Origin: Gillisia mitskevichiae
GTDB lineage: Bacteria; Bacteroidota; Bacteroidia; Flavobacteriales; Flavobacteriaceae
NCBI RefSeq assembly: GCF_003634585.1
Contig: NZ_RBLG01000003.1
Coordinates: 248,001 to 312,000 of the forward strand
Direction: 5' to 3'
Length of the DNA: 64,000 bases
A program made the translations under genes and the position numbers. Shown here one piece after another: positions 1 to 38,624 of the stretch. The notes below the pieces were generated by a model. It was given only the letters and a program-made list of their open reading frames with translations, was not told where the DNA came from and made no database searches. Numbering within the stretch: position 1 is the stretch's first letter; every line of letters begins with the position of its first letter.

Positions 1-558
<558 letters not shown>

Positions 559-33991: not shown

Positions 33992-34621
33992 TTAAATCTT
34001 AACAATATTATTCTTTACAGCAAAAAGTACCATTCCTACTCTACTTTTTACTTGAAGTTTAGAAAATAGGCTTTCACGATAGCCATCAATCGTTTTTGGG
34101 CTTAGATTCATTTCTTCTGCAACCTCTTTATATGTTTTTTCTGAACAAGCATAGTTTAAAAATTCCATTTCTCGATTACTGAGATTCCCATAATTTTTAG
34201 TGCCGGGATGATCTAGAACATCTTCTATCTCCTGACTAAAATAATAGCCGCTAGTAGAAACAGATTCTAAAGCATATAAAAATTCTTCTGGCTCTATATC
34301 TTTAAGTAAATATCCCCTACATCCTGCTCGAACCATTTTAATAATGATCTCCTCATCGTGCTCCATGGTTAGTGCCAAGGTCTTTTGTTCTGGAAATTGA
34401 TCCTTTAACCAAGACATGGTTGCAACCCCATCCATAATTGGCATACGAATATCTAATAAGATGATATCAGGTCGTTTATTATTTGAGTTAAAATAATCTA
34501 CAAGTTCTTGCCCATTCTTTAAAACTTTAATTACCTCATATTCTTGAAAAGAATTTACAAGACCCTGTAAAGATTGCGCAAATAAAGTGTGATCATCAAC
34601 TATTAATATCGTCTTTTTCAT
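33992..34621 (-). CDS. NarL/LuxR-type response regulator
   Basis: A 209-residue two-component regulator. The receiver domain (1-120) has acidic residues D9 and D10, the phospho-acceptor D57 (ILLDIRMP) and the conserved lysine near LLKDIEPEEF. The C-terminal LuxR helix-turn-helix spans about 145-205 (LSNREMEFLNYACSEKTYKEVAEEM). The gene overlaps the end of the kinase gene by 26 bases, so the two form a matched pair. The target genes are not visible. Confidence 0.95.
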   Translation of the reverse strand: MKKTILIVDDHTLFAQSLQGLVNSFQEYEVIKVLKNGQELVDYFNSNNKRPDIILLDIRMPIMDGVATMSWLKDQFPEQKTLALTMEHDEEIIIKMVRAGCRGYLLKDIEPEEFLYALESVSTSGYYFSQEIEDVLDHPGTKNYGNLSNREMEFLNYACSEKTYKEVAEEMNLSPKTIDGYRESLFSKLQVKSRVGMVLFAVKNNIVKI

Positions 34622-35402
34622 AGGGAGAGACTTTTATTGGATATTTTAATGACAGGGATGTTCCCTTGTCTGGAATTGAGTGAATTAATATACTTGTATT
34701 AATTAGGGAAGCACGGCTCTCCATATTAATTAAACCTGAACTTTTGGTTACTTCATCCACATTAAAACCTTTCCCATTATCCTTTATATCAATGTGTATT
34801 TCTTCTGGGAGATAATTGATAAGTACTTCTATCTTAGAAGCATTTGCATGCTTTATAATATTAGAGAAAAACTCCTGAATGATCCTAAATAGAATGATAG
34901 AATCTTTATTTATAATTTCTATACTTTCTCCTGTACTTATTAGGTCTGTCTCTATATTATTTAGACGCTGAAATCTTAATAATTCATTTTTAATGGATGC
35001 TTCTATTCCAGCATATCCTACAACTTCATTATTTAAAGATTTAGAAAGTGATCTTACTTCCTGTAATGAATTTGCTACAACTTCCTTAACATCTTTTACA
35101 GATTGCTTTGCATCCTCGTGCACAGTTCCAGTAAGAATATTGAGTTGCATGTTAGCAACTGAAAGCAATTGCCCAATATTATCATGTAACTCCCAACTTA
35201 CATTCTTTAAAGTTTGTTCTTGTATTTCAATTTTAGACTGTGCCAATTCATTTTCGAAACGTTTTTCAGCTTCAAATTTCTCATAAAGTAAGGTGTTCTT
35301 TCGTTTTTGGAAAGTAATAAAGAAGATTATAGCAAAACTGGTCAACAATAAAATAACCACTATAAAATAAACAATTAATAACAGTTCCTCCTTAGCTAAC
35401 AT
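34596..35402 (-). CDS. HisKA_3-type sensor histidine kinase
   Basis: A 268-residue kinase with one N-terminal membrane segment (about 7-30), a short coiled coil (about 35-68) and the dimerisation/phospho-acceptor region with H73 in SWELHDNIGQLLS. The ATPase domain follows, with IKHANAS (N-box-like) and DNGKGFNVDEV (G1). There is no extracytoplasmic sensing domain, so the signal must come from the membrane segment, the coiled coil or a partner protein. It is transcribed with the regulator downstream. Confidence 0.93.
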   Translation of the reverse strand: MLAKEELLLIVYFIVVILLLTSFAIIFFITFQKRKNTLLYEKFEAEKRFENELAQSKIEIQEQTLKNVSWELHDNIGQLLSVANMQLNILTGTVHEDAKQSVKDVKEVVANSLQEVRSLSKSLNNEVVGYAGIEASIKNELLRFQRLNNIETDLISTGESIEIINKDSIILFRIIQEFFSNIIKHANASKIEVLINYLPEEIHIDIKDNGKGFNVDEVTKSSGLINMESRASLINTSILIHSIPDKGTSLSLKYPIKVSPYEKDDINS

Positions 35403-35481: not shown

Positions 35482-35745
35482 TTAGATTTTCCGATAAGAA
35501 ATACTTTTCATATTTAAACTGGAGTTTCTTTTTGCACAATAAATAAAACCAATGGTGAACATGCTATACATAAAAGCATTACAATACCTTAAAATAACAG
35601 CTTGAGTTTTGATAAAATCTAAATTCTCAATAGAAAAATAAGCACTATAAATATGAATAGGTGGTACGCATAGATGCCAAAAAATTAGACCAATCAATAG
35701 AAATATAAAAGAAAATATTCTTCTTAAATTCTAAAATCAAGCATT
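35482..35745 (-). pseudogene. Frameshifted partial copy of the neighbouring seven-helix membrane protein
   Basis: The open part (35482-35697) encodes FWHLCVPPIHIYSAYFSIEN and RYCNAFMYSMFTIGFIYCAK. These are clearly homologous to IWHLCVSPIDIYSTYFSIEN and RYCNIFMYGIFSFGFIYCAG at the C terminus of the intact gene at 35896-36639. Just upstream, in another frame, the sequence encodes ILEFKKNIFFYISI, matching ILDIKRNLLFYISV. So one frameshift lies near 35697, and homology fades above about 35745. Only the last third of the gene remains. It is a decayed duplicate in the same orientation as the intact copy. Confidence 0.8.
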
Positions 35746-35895: not shown

Positions 35896-36639
35896 TTATA
35901 AATCACTCTTCTCTAATCTAGATATGGCAAGACGAGTTTTACCTGCGCAATAGATAAATCCAAAGGAAAATATGCCATACATAAAAATATTACAATACCT
36001 AAGAATAGCTGCATGCATAAAAATAAAGTCACGATTTTCTATAGAAAAATAAGTGCTGTAAATATCAATTGGAGATACACACAAATGCCAAATAAAAACA
36101 CCTACAGAGATATAAAAAAGTAAATTCCTTTTTATATCCAAAATTTGATCACTCATAAGCAATTCATAATAATAAATACCAATAGCAATTATTAGTAACA
36201 ATACTCCCACTAATCGAACAGACATATCATACTTGTAAAATAATTGATCTGAACTTGTGAGTTTGAAAATCCCTAAAATTATAAAACCAAACAGAGTATA
36301 TTTTAAAATTCTCTTGATCTTTAATTTTTTAATCTGCTTGATAAAAAGAAAGCTATAAAATATACTACTTATAAGATTAAGCCAATTATACAACCATACA
36401 TTTCGAGTAAATAATGAATTTTCCAAAAAAGGAAAGGTCCTATAATCATCAAAATAGGCCCATAAAGCGTATAAACCACTGAGATCTACTAGAAGTACAA
36501 ACCATAAAAACCATGAGAAATATATAATTTCCTTTCTAACTCTTGGAGTTTTAATTAAATAGTAACTGCCACTAACAGCTGCAATAAATTCAAAAATATA
36601 AGTAACATAAATTTTATTATCTATTATAAAATCCAGCAT
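35896..36639 (-). CDS. Uncharacterised seven-helix membrane protein
   Basis: A 247-residue protein I cannot place in a named family. About seven hydrophobic segments are visible (roughly residues 9-27, 38-60, 86-104, 112-130, 141-160, 172-190, 214-232), with short basic loops such as KQIKKLKIKRIL. The WHLCVSPIDIYSTYFSIEN loop near the end is the best-kept part when compared with the broken copy downstream. Position next to the two-component genes suggests, weakly, a membrane partner of that kinase. It starts 16 bases after the 124-residue gene ends, so they may be co-transcribed. Confidence 0.7.
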   Translation of the reverse strand: MLDFIIDNKIYVTYIFEFIAAVSGSYYLIKTPRVRKEIIYFSWFLWFVLLVDLSGLYALWAYFDDYRTFPFLENSLFTRNVWLYNWLNLISSIFYSFLFIKQIKKLKIKRILKYTLFGFIILGIFKLTSSDQLFYKYDMSVRLVGVLLLIIAIGIYYYELLMSDQILDIKRNLLFYISVGVFIWHLCVSPIDIYSTYFSIENRDFIFMHAAILRYCNIFMYGIFSFGFIYCAGKTRLAISRLEKSDL

Positions 36640-36655
36640 ATGTAATTTGTCACTA

Positions 36656-37030
36656 TTAGTATCCTAATGGAGGCCATAAACCAGCGCCATTATTAAATGG
36701 TTCTATCTCGTCATTCGCAACATCGTCGAATTCCAACTCAGAATTTTCGGACTTTATTCTTTTGGTCGCTGCTAAAAACACAGTAGCTAAACTTGGTTTA
36801 TCTGCTGTTTCATCATAAGCACCAAACCAAATGTTTATTCCTGGACTATCCACACCTTGTTCTAAGGATTTTGTTTTTACTTCATCCAGATAATTTTGAA
36901 GCTCTTCCACTGTGAAATGGAATTGGCAAGTATCTTCGTGTGTTTCTCCATTTGTAGTAACATTTAATCTAGTATCCCACCATTTCTTCTGAAGCTTCTT
37001 AGCTTTTGCAACTGTAACTTTTCTACCCAT
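36656..37030 (-). CDS. Uncharacterised 124-residue protein
   Basis: A small soluble protein with no recognised domain. It has a lysine-rich start (MGRKVTVAKAKKLQKKWWDTR), a central helix VEELQNYLDEVKTK, a strand INIWFGAYDE and a Trp/Pro-rich end (NNGAGLWPPLGY). The WWDTR and IWFGAY blocks recall conserved hypotheticals of Bacteroidota, but no function is known to me. It is divergent from the array of three small-RNA genes that starts about 100 bases away. It may share an operon with the membrane protein downstream. Confidence 0.75.
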   Translation of the reverse strand: MGRKVTVAKAKKLQKKWWDTRLNVTTNGETHEDTCQFHFTVEELQNYLDEVKTKSLEQGVDSPGINIWFGAYDETADKPSLATVFLAATKRIKSENSELEFDDVANDEIEPFNNGAGLWPPLGY

Positions 37031-37112
37031 ACTATTAGTTTTAATATTATTAAGTTATAACCAAACATTTTGTTAAAAGTAGAATTTTTCTTTAACATAT
37101 TTTTTTAAATTC

Positions 37113-37133
37113 AAAAAAAGGGGAAAAATCCCC
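37113..37133. promoter_or_regulatory. GGGG/CCCC inverted repeat upstream of small RNA A
   Basis: A-run, then GGGG (37120-37123), AAAAAT, CCCC (37130-37133), joined directly to the -33 TTG. The same design precedes copies B and C. As a hairpin it would also resemble a terminator for the minus strand because the A-run becomes T on that strand. A regulator site or a transcription block are both possible. Confidence 0.6.
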
Positions 37134-37164
37134 TTGAGAACATTTAACCTATTATATAAATTTG
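37134..37164 (+). promoter_or_regulatory. Promoter of small RNA A
   Basis: TTG (37134-37136), 20 bases, TAAATTTG (37157-37164): a perfect Bacteroidota -7 box at the usual spacing. Copies B and C have the identical 20-base spacing. Expected start of transcription is near 37170. Confidence 0.8.
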
Positions 37165-37169
37165 ATTTA

Positions 37170-37281
37170 TTATTCTACTTGATGTAAAAGTTAGGATGAA
37201 ACAAAATAAAGTGTCGAAATGTGTGAATAATTATTAGGTAGGGCTTCTAATTATTCAGAAATGCATTCCCGGCACTTTTTC
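37170..37281 (+). ncRNA. Tandem small RNA, copy A
   Basis: About 112 nt from the predicted start to the end of the T-run. A roughly 40-nt leader is followed by the closing stem GTGTCG (37211-37216) with CGGCAC (37270-37275). An apical stem TGAATAATTA/TAATTATTCA (37224-37233, 37248-37257) carries the 14-nt loop TTAGGTAGGGCTTC. TTTTT follows directly and serves as terminator. No coding frame is conserved with the other copies, whereas the stem-loop is, so this is read as a non-coding RNA. Confidence 0.75.
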
Positions 37282-37334
37282 GTTTATAGTAATATCTCCG
37301 CTAAAAGAATTATCTCCTATAAGACAAATAAAAT

Positions 37335-37354
37335 AAAAAAAGGGAAAAACCCCC
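37335..37354. promoter_or_regulatory. GGG/CCC inverted repeat upstream of small RNA B
   Basis: A-run, GGG (37342-37344), AAAAA, CCCCC (37350-37354), directly abutting the -33 TTG, as in copies A and C. The conservation of this block while the adjacent spacer has diverged suggests a selected function. Confidence 0.6.
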
Positions 37355-37385
37355 TTGTGATGTTTGAAATGCAGAAGTATTTTTG
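37355..37385 (+). promoter_or_regulatory. Promoter of small RNA B
   Basis: TTG (37355-37357), 20 bases, TATTTTTG (37378-37385), a perfect TAnnTTTG box. The 20-base spacer is unlike those of A and C in sequence, so the boxes are kept by selection rather than by recent copying. Confidence 0.8.
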
Positions 37386-37390
37386 AGTAG

Positions 37391-37497
37391 AAATAATAAC
37401 TAAGTTGAGTTAAGAAAAAGAAGTGTCGTGGGATGTGTGATTTTTAATTAGGTGGGGCTAAAAAGAAATCGAAAACACAAACACGACACCTTTTTTG
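37391..37497 (+). ncRNA. Tandem small RNA, copy B
   Basis: About 107 nt. The closing stem is a perfect GTGTCGTG (37423-37430) with CACGACAC (37482-37489). Inside, TGTGT can pair with ACACA, and the apical stem TTTTTA/TAAAAA (37441-37446, 37459-37464) shows the loop ATTAGGTGGGGC. A run of six T follows one base after the stem. Relative to copy A the apical stem sequence is entirely different but still pairs, which supports an RNA structure. Confidence 0.75.
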
Positions 37498-37557
37498 TGC
37501 CAATTTTAAATGAAGGCTGAATTTTTAATTAGGATATTGAATTGAAAAGTATAACCT

Positions 37558-37579
37558 AAAAAAAAAGGGAAAAACCCCC
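37558..37579. promoter_or_regulatory. GGG/CCC inverted repeat upstream of small RNA C
   Basis: A-run, GGG (37567-37569), AAAAA, CCCCC (37575-37579), then the -33 TTG. It is nearly identical to the copy B block. Confidence 0.6.
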
Positions 37580-37610
37580 TTGTTTAAAATCTTAGCCCAA
37601 TATATTTTTG
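37580..37610 (+). promoter_or_regulatory. Promoter of small RNA C
   Basis: TTG (37580-37582), 20 bases, TATTTTTG (37603-37610). The -7 boxes of the three units are 221 and 225 bases apart, which defines the repeat period. Confidence 0.8.
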
Positions 37611-37615
37611 AGCAT

Positions 37616-37725
37616 ATAAAAATTCAACTTAGTTAGTTAAGGTTACAAAAAGTGTCGTTAAGAGTGAGATTAGATTTTTAGGTAGGGCTTTAAATCTGTG
37701 AACCACGATTAATTGACACTTTTTA
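37616..37725 (+). ncRNA. Tandem small RNA, copy C
   Basis: About 110 nt. Closing stem GTGTC (37652-37656) with GACAC (37715-37719), extended by TTAA/TTAA. The apical stem AGATTT/AAATCT (37672-37677, 37692-37697) carries the loop TTAGGTAGGGCTTT, 14 nt and nearly identical to copy A. TTTTT follows. The RNA ends about 40 bases before the stop codon of the convergent pxpC gene. Confidence 0.75.
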
Positions 37726-37763
37726 TCTTTTAACCTTGTAGTATTACTCTAACGTATAAAATT

Positions 37764-38624
37764 TCATTTTATTTCGAGTAATCTAAATCTCAGCATATCT
37801 CCTACAACTTTTTGGGAAATTGTATTTATTCCATCTTCACTTAGTTGCAAGATCCTTGGATAACCTCCAGTAGTTTGGCAATCTCGCATTAAAACGATCA
37901 TCTTTCCAGATGGAGTTAATTGTACCGTGCCTGGTAAAACTGGTCCAGTTATAATTGGATGTAATTTATTTATCAAGGCTTCCTTTAGCTGAATCGCCAT
38001 TCTATTATTATTGATATCCAAATGGAAGGAAGTTTCCAGAAGAAACTTTTTCTGGAAAGATGATAACAATTCATATTCGGGTCCTGGGTAAACTGGAACA
38101 ATTTTATTTGTTTGATAAATGTCATCCACTTTTATAGATGCATTTAATAAGTATGTTTTAGATTCTTGCGTGGAATATTTTAGCCTACTGCCTTTATCGA
38201 GTACTTCCATTTCGCTAATTCCATTATACCAGCTAAAGCTACCCAGAAATTTTTCTACAATAAAACCACCCGCAATAGCAATATATGCTCTACATCCATT
38301 TAGTCTTTTTCCAAAAGACAAAACATCTTCCTTTTCGATAGAAAGAACTTTGTTATTTAAAACTAAATCTCCATTGATCTTAGGCTCTAAATATGCACCA
38401 CAAATAGAAATCTGTATGGGTTCAGAAAATTTTAATTTAGGACCTAATTGGGTAATTTCTAAAACGGGAAAACTCTCTGCATTAGACAAAATTAGGTTTG
38501 ACATTTTTGCCGAATAAGAATCCATAGCCCCACTTTGAGGCACCCCATATTTTCGAAAATTAGTTCTGCCTAAATCCTGAATTGAAGAGTATAAACCTGG
38601 ATGTAAAACTTCGATCTCACCCAT
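37764..38624 (-). CDS. pxpC: 5-oxoprolinase subunit C (carboxyltransferase-like)
   Basis: PxpC (KipA, biotin-dependent carboxyltransferase domain 2) acts with PxpA and PxpB in ATP-dependent opening of 5-oxoproline to glutamate. The 286-residue protein begins with the family signature IEVLHPGLYSSIQDLGRTNFRKYGVPQSGAMD. It ends with GYPRILQLSEDGINTISQKVVGDMLRF. Its start overlaps pxpB by 8 bases. It is the last gene of the operon and runs towards the small-RNA array. Confidence 0.95.
   Translation of the reverse strand: MGEIEVLHPGLYSSIQDLGRTNFRKYGVPQSGAMDSYSAKMSNLILSNAESFPVLEITQLGPKLKFSEPIQISICGAYLEPKINGDLVLNNKVLSIEKEDVLSFGKRLNGCRAYIAIAGGFIVEKFLGSFSWYNGISEMEVLDKGSRLKYSTQESKTYLLNASIKVDDIYQTNKIVPVYPGPEYELLSSFQKKFLLETSFHLDINNNRMAIQLKEALINKLHPIITGPVLPGTVQLTPSGKMIVLMRDCQTTGGYPRILQLSEDGINTISQKVVGDMLRFRLLEIK

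Follow-up and report, generated by a model that had tools for sequence, protein, structure and literature searches.

What is encoded in the gap between two open reading frames of Gillisia mitskevichiae, one ending at 37030 and the other starting at 37764 of a 64,000-nucleotide window (the whole stretch of DNA that was analysed), and what might switch it on? Three direct small RNA (sRNA) units fill this gap at 37120-37728 on the plus strand, 221 and 225 bases apart, without overlapping either flanking ORF (Table 1). In all three units the parts follow one order: a palindrome abuts TTG, exactly 20 bases separate TTG from TAnnTTTG, and behind these come the leader, a hairpin and a T-run. Each unit is predicted to yield an RNA of about 110 nt with two hairpins and a terminator. 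The first-pass annotation of this DNA had described three tandem small-RNA units, each with its own promoter and terminator, which repeat every 221-225 bases and carry TTG, exactly 20 nt and TAnnTTTG, and the sequence bears out this description in each unit. The same annotation called the units antisense to all nearby genes; they do lie on the strand opposite to both flanking ORFs, but they overlap no gene, and the term thus holds only in the sense of opposite orientation. Among 65 copies of the family, the TTK-N20-TA spacing was 20 in 64 and 21 in the remaining copy, and judged by sequence, the boxes TTK-N20-TAnnTTTG are of the Bacteroidota sigma-A kind.

Table 1. Features of the sRNA locus and the adjoining genes (window coordinates).
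Feature	Coordinates	Strand	Basis
c4: NarL/GacA-like response regulator, Response_reg + GerE; proposed sRNA activator	33992..34621	-	Pfam; NCBIfam below cut-offs
c3: sensor histidine kinase, HisKA_3 + HATPase_c	34596..35402	-	Pfam
Probable c0 remnant (second copy): 71-aa ORF similar by eye to the C-terminal part of c0	35482..35697	-	no Pfam match
c0: 247-aa multi-pass membrane protein, by eye (hydrophobic stretches)	35896..36639	-	no Pfam match over cut-off
c1: 124-aa protein, divergent from the sRNAs, conserved ...PPxxY C terminus	36656..37030	-	no Pfam match
Unit 1 operator-like palindrome GGGGAAAAATCCCC	37120..37133		sequence
Unit 1 promoter: TTG, 20 nt, TAAATTTG	37134..37164	+	sequence
sRNA copy 1; hexaloop GTAGGG 37238-37243; T-run 37276-37280	37171..37283	+	fold, R2 match; 5' end predicted from the -7 box
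Unit 2 palindrome GGGAAAAACCCCC	37342..37354		sequence
Unit 2 promoter: TTG, 20 nt, TATTTTTG	37355..37385	+	sequence
sRNA copy 2; hexaloop GTGGGG 37452-37457; T-run 37491-37496	37391..37497	+	fold, copy-2 clade; 5' end predicted
Unit 3 palindrome GGGAAAAACCCCC	37567..37579		sequence
Unit 3 promoter: TTG, 20 nt, TATTTTTG	37580..37610	+	sequence
sRNA copy 3; hexaloop GTAGGG 37682-37687; T-run 37720-37724	37617..37728	+	fold, copy-3 clade; 5' end predicted
Conserved flanking gene, carboxyltransferase A/B domain	37764..38624	-	PF02626, synteny

Covariation establishes the structure of these RNAs, in which a linker joins a 5' hairpin to a terminator hairpin with GURGGG displayed as its loop. The closing stem is GTGTC/GGCAC in copy 1 and GTGTC/GACAC in copies 2 and 3, and the closing stem of GTGTC...GACAC type, the apical stems and the T-runs are as the first-pass annotation described them, except that the copy 1 arm reads GGCAC. 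Against 200 dinucleotide shuffles each, copies 1, 2 and 3 folded with z-scores of -4.33, -5.14 and -2.73, and 0, 0 and 4 shuffles, respectively, folded as well as the native sequence. We tested 58 aligned copies against 500 shuffles over 25 pairs, which make up the 5' hairpin, the terminator and apical stems and the loop-closing pairs: 90.8% of the cells were paired versus 76.3 in shuffles, 189 cells were changed on both sides versus 64, and the covariation score was 0.403, which 0/500 shuffles reached, versus 0.171; sliding the partners gave at most 0.116. By another measure, how many pairs showed changes on both sides, the alignment was not unusual (14 versus 12.4; reached by 77/500 shuffles). 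RNAalifold, applied to an earlier 32-row alignment, recovered the outer stem only (5 pairs), we think because the middle part was poorly aligned.

The displayed loop of the hairpin is nearly invariant. It reads AG-GTAGGG-CT in copies 1 and 3 and AG-GTGGGG-CT in copy 2, and the flanking AG and CU are able to pair (columns 41-50 and 42-49 were paired in 32/32 rows); the exposed part is therefore the hexaloop GURGGG. An earlier proposal of a nearly constant, exposed G-rich loop thus stands as to its constancy, but exposure is confined to the hexaloop and does not extend to the whole 14 nt. In 79 distinct model hits the hexaloop was GUAGGG in 67, GUGGGG in 8 and a variant in 4, which makes GURGGG 75/79, although the counts are inflated, since the pattern by which most of the copies were chosen included both palindrome and loop, and the model was built on them. 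Three of the four variants look decayed, and one, AUAGGG, has intact stems. The pair closing the hexaloop was A-U in 25, G-C in 20 and U-A in 13 of the 58 rows while the loop stayed nearly fixed, and this covariation is independent of the loop-based choice of copies. The idea of a selected RNA whose stems vary around a G-rich loop that hardly changes is thus supported by real covariation in homologues, which was strong on the 58 rows. Apparently decaying copies that keep the palindrome and have an altered loop and stem were seen at L037:6706-6816, L047:2839-2946 and L009:1773-1879, and genome G002 holds one further decayed copy.

How widely is this family distributed? No family of Rfam 15 matched the three units at the gathering score, and at E up to 5 there were 8 sub-threshold matches of 14.5-21.3 bits, all far below the cut-offs. 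The suggestion that the units might be Flavo-1 fails: with the threshold relaxed to E 5, RF01705 still matched nothing in 37050-37800. The only Flavo-1 match of the window lies elsewhere (391-468, minus strand, 50.5 bits, above the cut-off) and is unrelated to the three units. By blastn, similar DNA was found in 16 of 60 genomes, our own included, and the loci found in this way had the same architecture, changed stems and the same loop. We built a hairpin-only model (R1) and a full-length covariance model (R2). R2 matched in 16/16 Gillisia genomes examined (weakest best E 2.5e-7), and in 397 Flavobacteriaceae genomes, searched with stricter filters that lose some weak matches, 18 reached E 0.05 and 8 were strong (E 4.2e-12 or better), the latter from four genera: Gillisia, g51 with Salegentibacter, g255 with Christiangramia, and g120. 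The other 10 matches (E 0.014-0.05) were taken as noise. Of 299 family genomes, 7 had an R1 match. The one in G147 was weak (E 0.0084), and since neither palindrome nor promoter stood in the stretch read, we rejected it, as we did for the same reason the R1 matches C2:908370 and C2:934736 of our own genome (E 0.24 and 0.26). A scan of named genomes for the whole architecture returned 42 stretches, of which 36 lay in Gillisia, Salegentibacter and Christiangramia/Gramella; the other 6, scattered over other phyla and classes, were taken as chance because they failed the hairpin check and had no R2 match. One off-locus R2 match, L166 (G009:C2:550715-550822, E 4.2e-4), forms a GUAGGG hairpin without such a palindrome in the stretch examined.

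From the R1 and R2 counts over the family genomes, the sRNA family looks clade-specific and not Flavobacteriaceae-wide. It is also not limited to this strain: the covariance-model search that had been suggested at the outset found homologues in all 16 Gillisia genomes and in Salegentibacter, Christiangramia/Gramella and g120, and none in Rfam. Literature searches on small RNAs of Gillisia, Gramella forsetii, Salegentibacter and Flavobacteria, together with broader ones, turned up no title or abstract that describes this family. In a tree of 65 copies, copy 2 of the window grouped with second copies of other Gillisia (8 rows, 7 genomes, support 100/100), copy 3 with third copies (8 rows, 8 genomes, 97/88) and copy 1 with copy 1 of Gillisia sp. 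CAL575 (100/99). The three copies are thus old paralogues, two of which have been kept as separate lines across Gillisia; the copy clades span species, so the triplication predates these species, which argues against recent amplification. The earlier notion of a multicopy family resembling Qrr or Omr fits such old paralogues with separate copy lines, and the marks of multicopy trans-acting sRNAs, that is, an own promoter, a terminator, a conserved structure and paralogues, are all present in sequence.

Two elements that the first-pass annotation did not name bear on the control of these genes. One is the palindrome, GGG(G)-A5-T0/1-CCCC(C), immediately 5' of TTG in every unit of the window. Family-wide, GGG-N5-8-CCC occurred within 60 nt upstream of 79/79 model hits, a count inflated by the same choice of copies; over 65 copies the palindrome measured 14 bp in 53, 13 in 9 and 15 in 3, and its centre was A-rich or T-rich depending on the copy while the G/C blocks and the length were steady. 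We infer that the palindrome, mostly GGGG-N6-CCCC and centred at about -41, occupies a class II activator position, and it has the look of a binding site for a dimeric DNA-binding protein. The palindrome-promoter pattern occurred in our own genome at the three sRNAs and 1 other site, and a looser pattern hit 2 sites besides the sRNAs; across 16 Gillisia genomes the looser pattern gave 67 matches, nested ones counted, versus 29 for the reversed pattern. In five Gillisia genomes read (L182, L178, L184, L191 and L180), a palindrome with a TAnnTTTG-like box lies behind a gene for a 145-aa aspartic-protease-like protein and before a possible small membrane peptide, and in three (L198, L183 and L201) a palindrome with a promoter-like box precedes a lipoprotein gene whose leader is C-rich. 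These aspartic-protease-like and lipoprotein sites may be further regulon members.

The other element is the adjoining two-component locus. From pxpC, the flanking gene at 37764..38624 that we take to be of the 5-oxoprolinase subunit C type, most loci of sufficient length run through the sRNA(s), c1, c0, the histidine kinase and the response regulator to a GNAT/nitrilase gene, although some lack or repeat c1 or c0. PDB and Pfam searches with c1 and c0 gave nothing useful. The probable c0 remnant between c0 and the kinase looks as if a c1/c0 cassette had decayed there. In several genomes the sRNAs and the c0/c1 genes have multiplied together: Christiangramia crocea (L037) has three sRNAs, five c0 and two c1 ORFs, and in G003 and G011 the sRNAs alternate with c0 genes. 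In G138, c1, c0 and the kinase were not found by tblastn in the 10 kb surrounding the locus, and the sRNA and the regulator remain; its genus mate G338 has the full gene set. A second, more distant set of c1-like, membrane protein, kinase and regulator genes was noticed by eye from the ORFs at L175:591-3180 (G235).

Relatives of c1 occur in 141/249 family genomes. In 27 loci fetched from other Flavobacteriaceae genera, c1, c0 and the kinase were present in 27/27 and the regulator in 26/27, and R1 found no sRNA match better than E 0.046. Palindromes were nevertheless present in the 330 bases upstream of c1 in 21/27 loci, versus a shuffle mean of 2.3 and maximum of 6 (the raw number of 66 palindromes includes nested matches, and the motif was framed after some of these loci had been read). 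In 7/27 loci the palindrome runs directly into TTG-N20-TAnnTT, read from the strand that does not encode c1; the shuffles gave a mean of 0.035 and at most 1. The sole locus without the regulator (L110/L230) also lacks the palindrome, and 5/26 loci with the regulator had none in the 330 bases examined. In L086, from a genome without a clear sRNA match, three such palindromes stand in a row upstream of c1, at about 2060-2150. The palindrome thus goes with the operon and not only with the sRNA; the regulator encoded in that operon is therefore its likely binder, and the sRNAs are probably switched on by the adjoining sensor-regulator pair. This link draws on neighbourhood and position, and another regulator could bind the palindrome. 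The divergent promoter in genera lacking the sRNA would serve protein genes. Pfam placed injection-system genes on the divergent side, with Pvc16 in L088 and with sheath, tube, base-V, PAAR, gp25, baseplate J and tape measure genes in L173 (G065); in L096 and L105, judged by resemblance to L088, the operon is divergent from contractile injection genes. A Pvc16_N search of our own genome gave no match, but the control genomes likewise had none, so this result does not establish absence.

Taken together, the three units are probably paralogous trans-acting sRNA genes that form the RNA output of the adjacent two-component system. In this proposal, c3, the kinase, would sense a signal, probably together with c0 in the membrane and the small protein c1; phosphorylated c4, of NarL type, would then bind the palindrome GGGG-N6-CCCC abutting the -33 box, with its centre at about -41, and recruit sigma-A polymerase to TTK-N20-TAnnTTTG, as position, conservation and linkage suggest. 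The RNAs of about 110 nt thus made would carry a 5' hairpin, the linker and the terminator hairpin displaying GURGGG, and the rigid G-rich loop may be the functional contact, perhaps most likely through kissing or seed pairing with C-rich mRNA sites. Several copies with their own operators could provide a higher dose or small differences in specificity.

Other readings of the same elements have to be weighed. It is very unlikely, in our estimation, that GGGG-N6-CCCC only acts as an intrinsic terminator (AAGGGGATTTTTCCCCTTTTTTT in unit 1) of transcripts from the minus strand and that the sRNAs are constitutive. Both flanking genes are on the minus strand, which reads G-loop-C-T-run here and folds at -7.2 to -11 kcal/mol (z -0.99 to -1.97); yet the palindrome lies directly beside the TTK box, at a fixed spacing to the -7 box, in 65/65 copies checked, similar palindromes stand upstream of c1 in genera lacking the sRNA, often several in a row, and in three Salegentibacter loci (L039, L051 and L061), where the sRNA is turned round and shares its strand with c1 and pxpC, the palindrome is kept, which argues against a mere minus-strand terminator. 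Also unlikely are RNAs that act within the locus, feeding back on the c1-c0-kinase transcript, which diverges from them, or on the 3' end of pxpC, which converges with them. Strong copies were at this locus, beside c1, c0 or the kinase, in all loci read, and the loop pairs with kinase codons 5-10 in 9/10 Christiangramia/Gramella rows (-11.3 to -18.6 kcal/mol); the pairing site lies in conserved codons, however, its position is fixed in Christiangramia only and not kept in Gillisia or Salegentibacter, and the kinase start, with a mean z of -1.08 versus the loop, was the one local gene start that deviated. Loop and leader pairing with the starts of c0, c1, c2 and c4 was near chance, and G138 keeps the sRNA without c1, c0 and the kinase at the locus.

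The partner of the loop is the point on which the main rival differs: the GURGGG loops, with a GGGG linker found mainly in genera other than Gillisia, would act as a sponge and titrate a protein that binds RNA, such as an RbpB-like RRM protein. The first-pass annotation had suggested looking for targets with sites of the type AGCCCTACCT in mRNA 5' regions, and such sites are not enriched in the genome: our own genome has 81 sites with at most one mismatch versus 156 for the reversed pattern. Exact AGCCCTACCT sites number 6 in the genome, and sRNA copies 1 and 3, read from the other strand, account for 2 of them; of the 4 examined, long open frames on the matched strand hold 3 and 1 lies outside such frames, and none is at a gene start. 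Duplexes between the sRNAs and the C-rich lipoprotein leader (16 comparisons, the L201 leader being shortened by an earlier ATG) showed no consistent pairing, with one z of -2.48 (full copy 1, window genome) and the rest between -1.3 and +2.1. This lack of target-site enrichment is no less compatible with a protein partner than with mRNA pairing. The sponge reading is also favoured by a single near-invariant loop that stays displayed while its stems change, and by the several gene copies next to a NarL/GacA-like regulator; rsmX is known to have undergone tandem duplication (PMC7911923). Against a sponge, CsrA was not found in 16/16 Gillisia genomes (the control was found in 3/14 genomes), and the loop lacks GGA and occurs once per RNA where a sponge would have many motifs. 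We regard the sponge as somewhat unlikely, and favour a trans-acting RNA that pairs with C-rich sites.

A broader speculation, which we consider unlikely as a whole, is that [sRNA - c1 - c0] might be the duplicable block of a modular sensory cassette whose RNA dosage is read via the invariant GURGGG, with the same regulator and palindrome driving protein genes in other Flavobacteriaceae (in some cases the first injection-system genes), the sRNA replacing or being added to that output in one clade. Were this true, every receptor-like unit would bring its own regulator-controlled sRNA copy. To our knowledge, little is known about post-transcriptional control in marine Flavobacteriaceae. The locus unites the promoter, candidate operator, structure and probable regulator of one sRNA family, and cultured strains carry the family; a complete route from signal through kinase, regulator and sRNA to target may therefore be accessible via one regulator gene or about 600 bases. 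For a widespread orphan two-component system, which in some genera adjoins contractile injection genes, it also supplies a candidate DNA motif.

In Vibrio, Qrr1-5 are several sRNA copies with their own promoters that form the output of a phosphorelay under LuxO, and the Qrr genes depend on sigma-54 and LuxO. The units of the window are by analogy comparable, with several copies, each with its own promoter, and a proposed phosphorelay output; unlike Qrr, their boxes, TTK-N20-TAnnTTTG, are of the sigma-A kind and not sigma-54, and they have no Rfam match. Paralogous sRNA families are also known in Bacteroidota: FopS of Bacteroides thetaiotaomicron has 14 members of about 65-70 nt at many loci, with a 5' seed and canonical sigma promoters (PMC11697453). 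Compared by description, the present family resembles FopS/GibS in being paralogous and differs in its tandem arrangement, its length of about 110 nt, its loop-displayed motif and its two-component locus. Rfp18 of Flavobacterium psychrophilum is reported to be conserved in the genus Flavobacterium and to pair by its third stem-loop (PMC9723704); it is likewise a conserved flavobacterial sRNA with a strong predicted structure, again compared by description and not by sequence. Flavo-1 (RF01705) is also a structured RNA motif of Flavobacteria, whose model does not match the three units, and the sRNA family is neither Flavo-1 nor CsrA-linked.

A close parallel is with RsmX, RsmY and RsmZ, which act under GacS/GacA in Pseudomonas and are multicopy sRNAs with tandem duplicates, a palindromic upstream element and an exposed G-rich motif (PMC7911923). 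The units of the window are likewise short, multicopy, tandem sRNAs with a candidate two-component regulator, an upstream palindrome and an exposed G-rich motif, and whereas Csr/Rsm RNAs are marked by a GacA-type regulator acting on a palindromic element, here a NarL/GacA-like gene adjoins and all copies have a palindrome on which its product may act. Unlike in the Rsm system, the loop is GURGGG and not GGA, CsrA was absent from the search results of the 16 Gillisia genomes, the palindrome abuts the -33 box, the sRNA genes adjoin the kinase and regulator pair, and there is no Rfam sequence match. Our best reading, by analogy, is that the regulator would activate the sRNAs as GacA does the Rsm RNAs or LuxO the Qrr RNAs; multicopy sRNAs under a two-component system are a known kind, of which this family, its operator and its linkage to the sensory locus appear to be new representatives.
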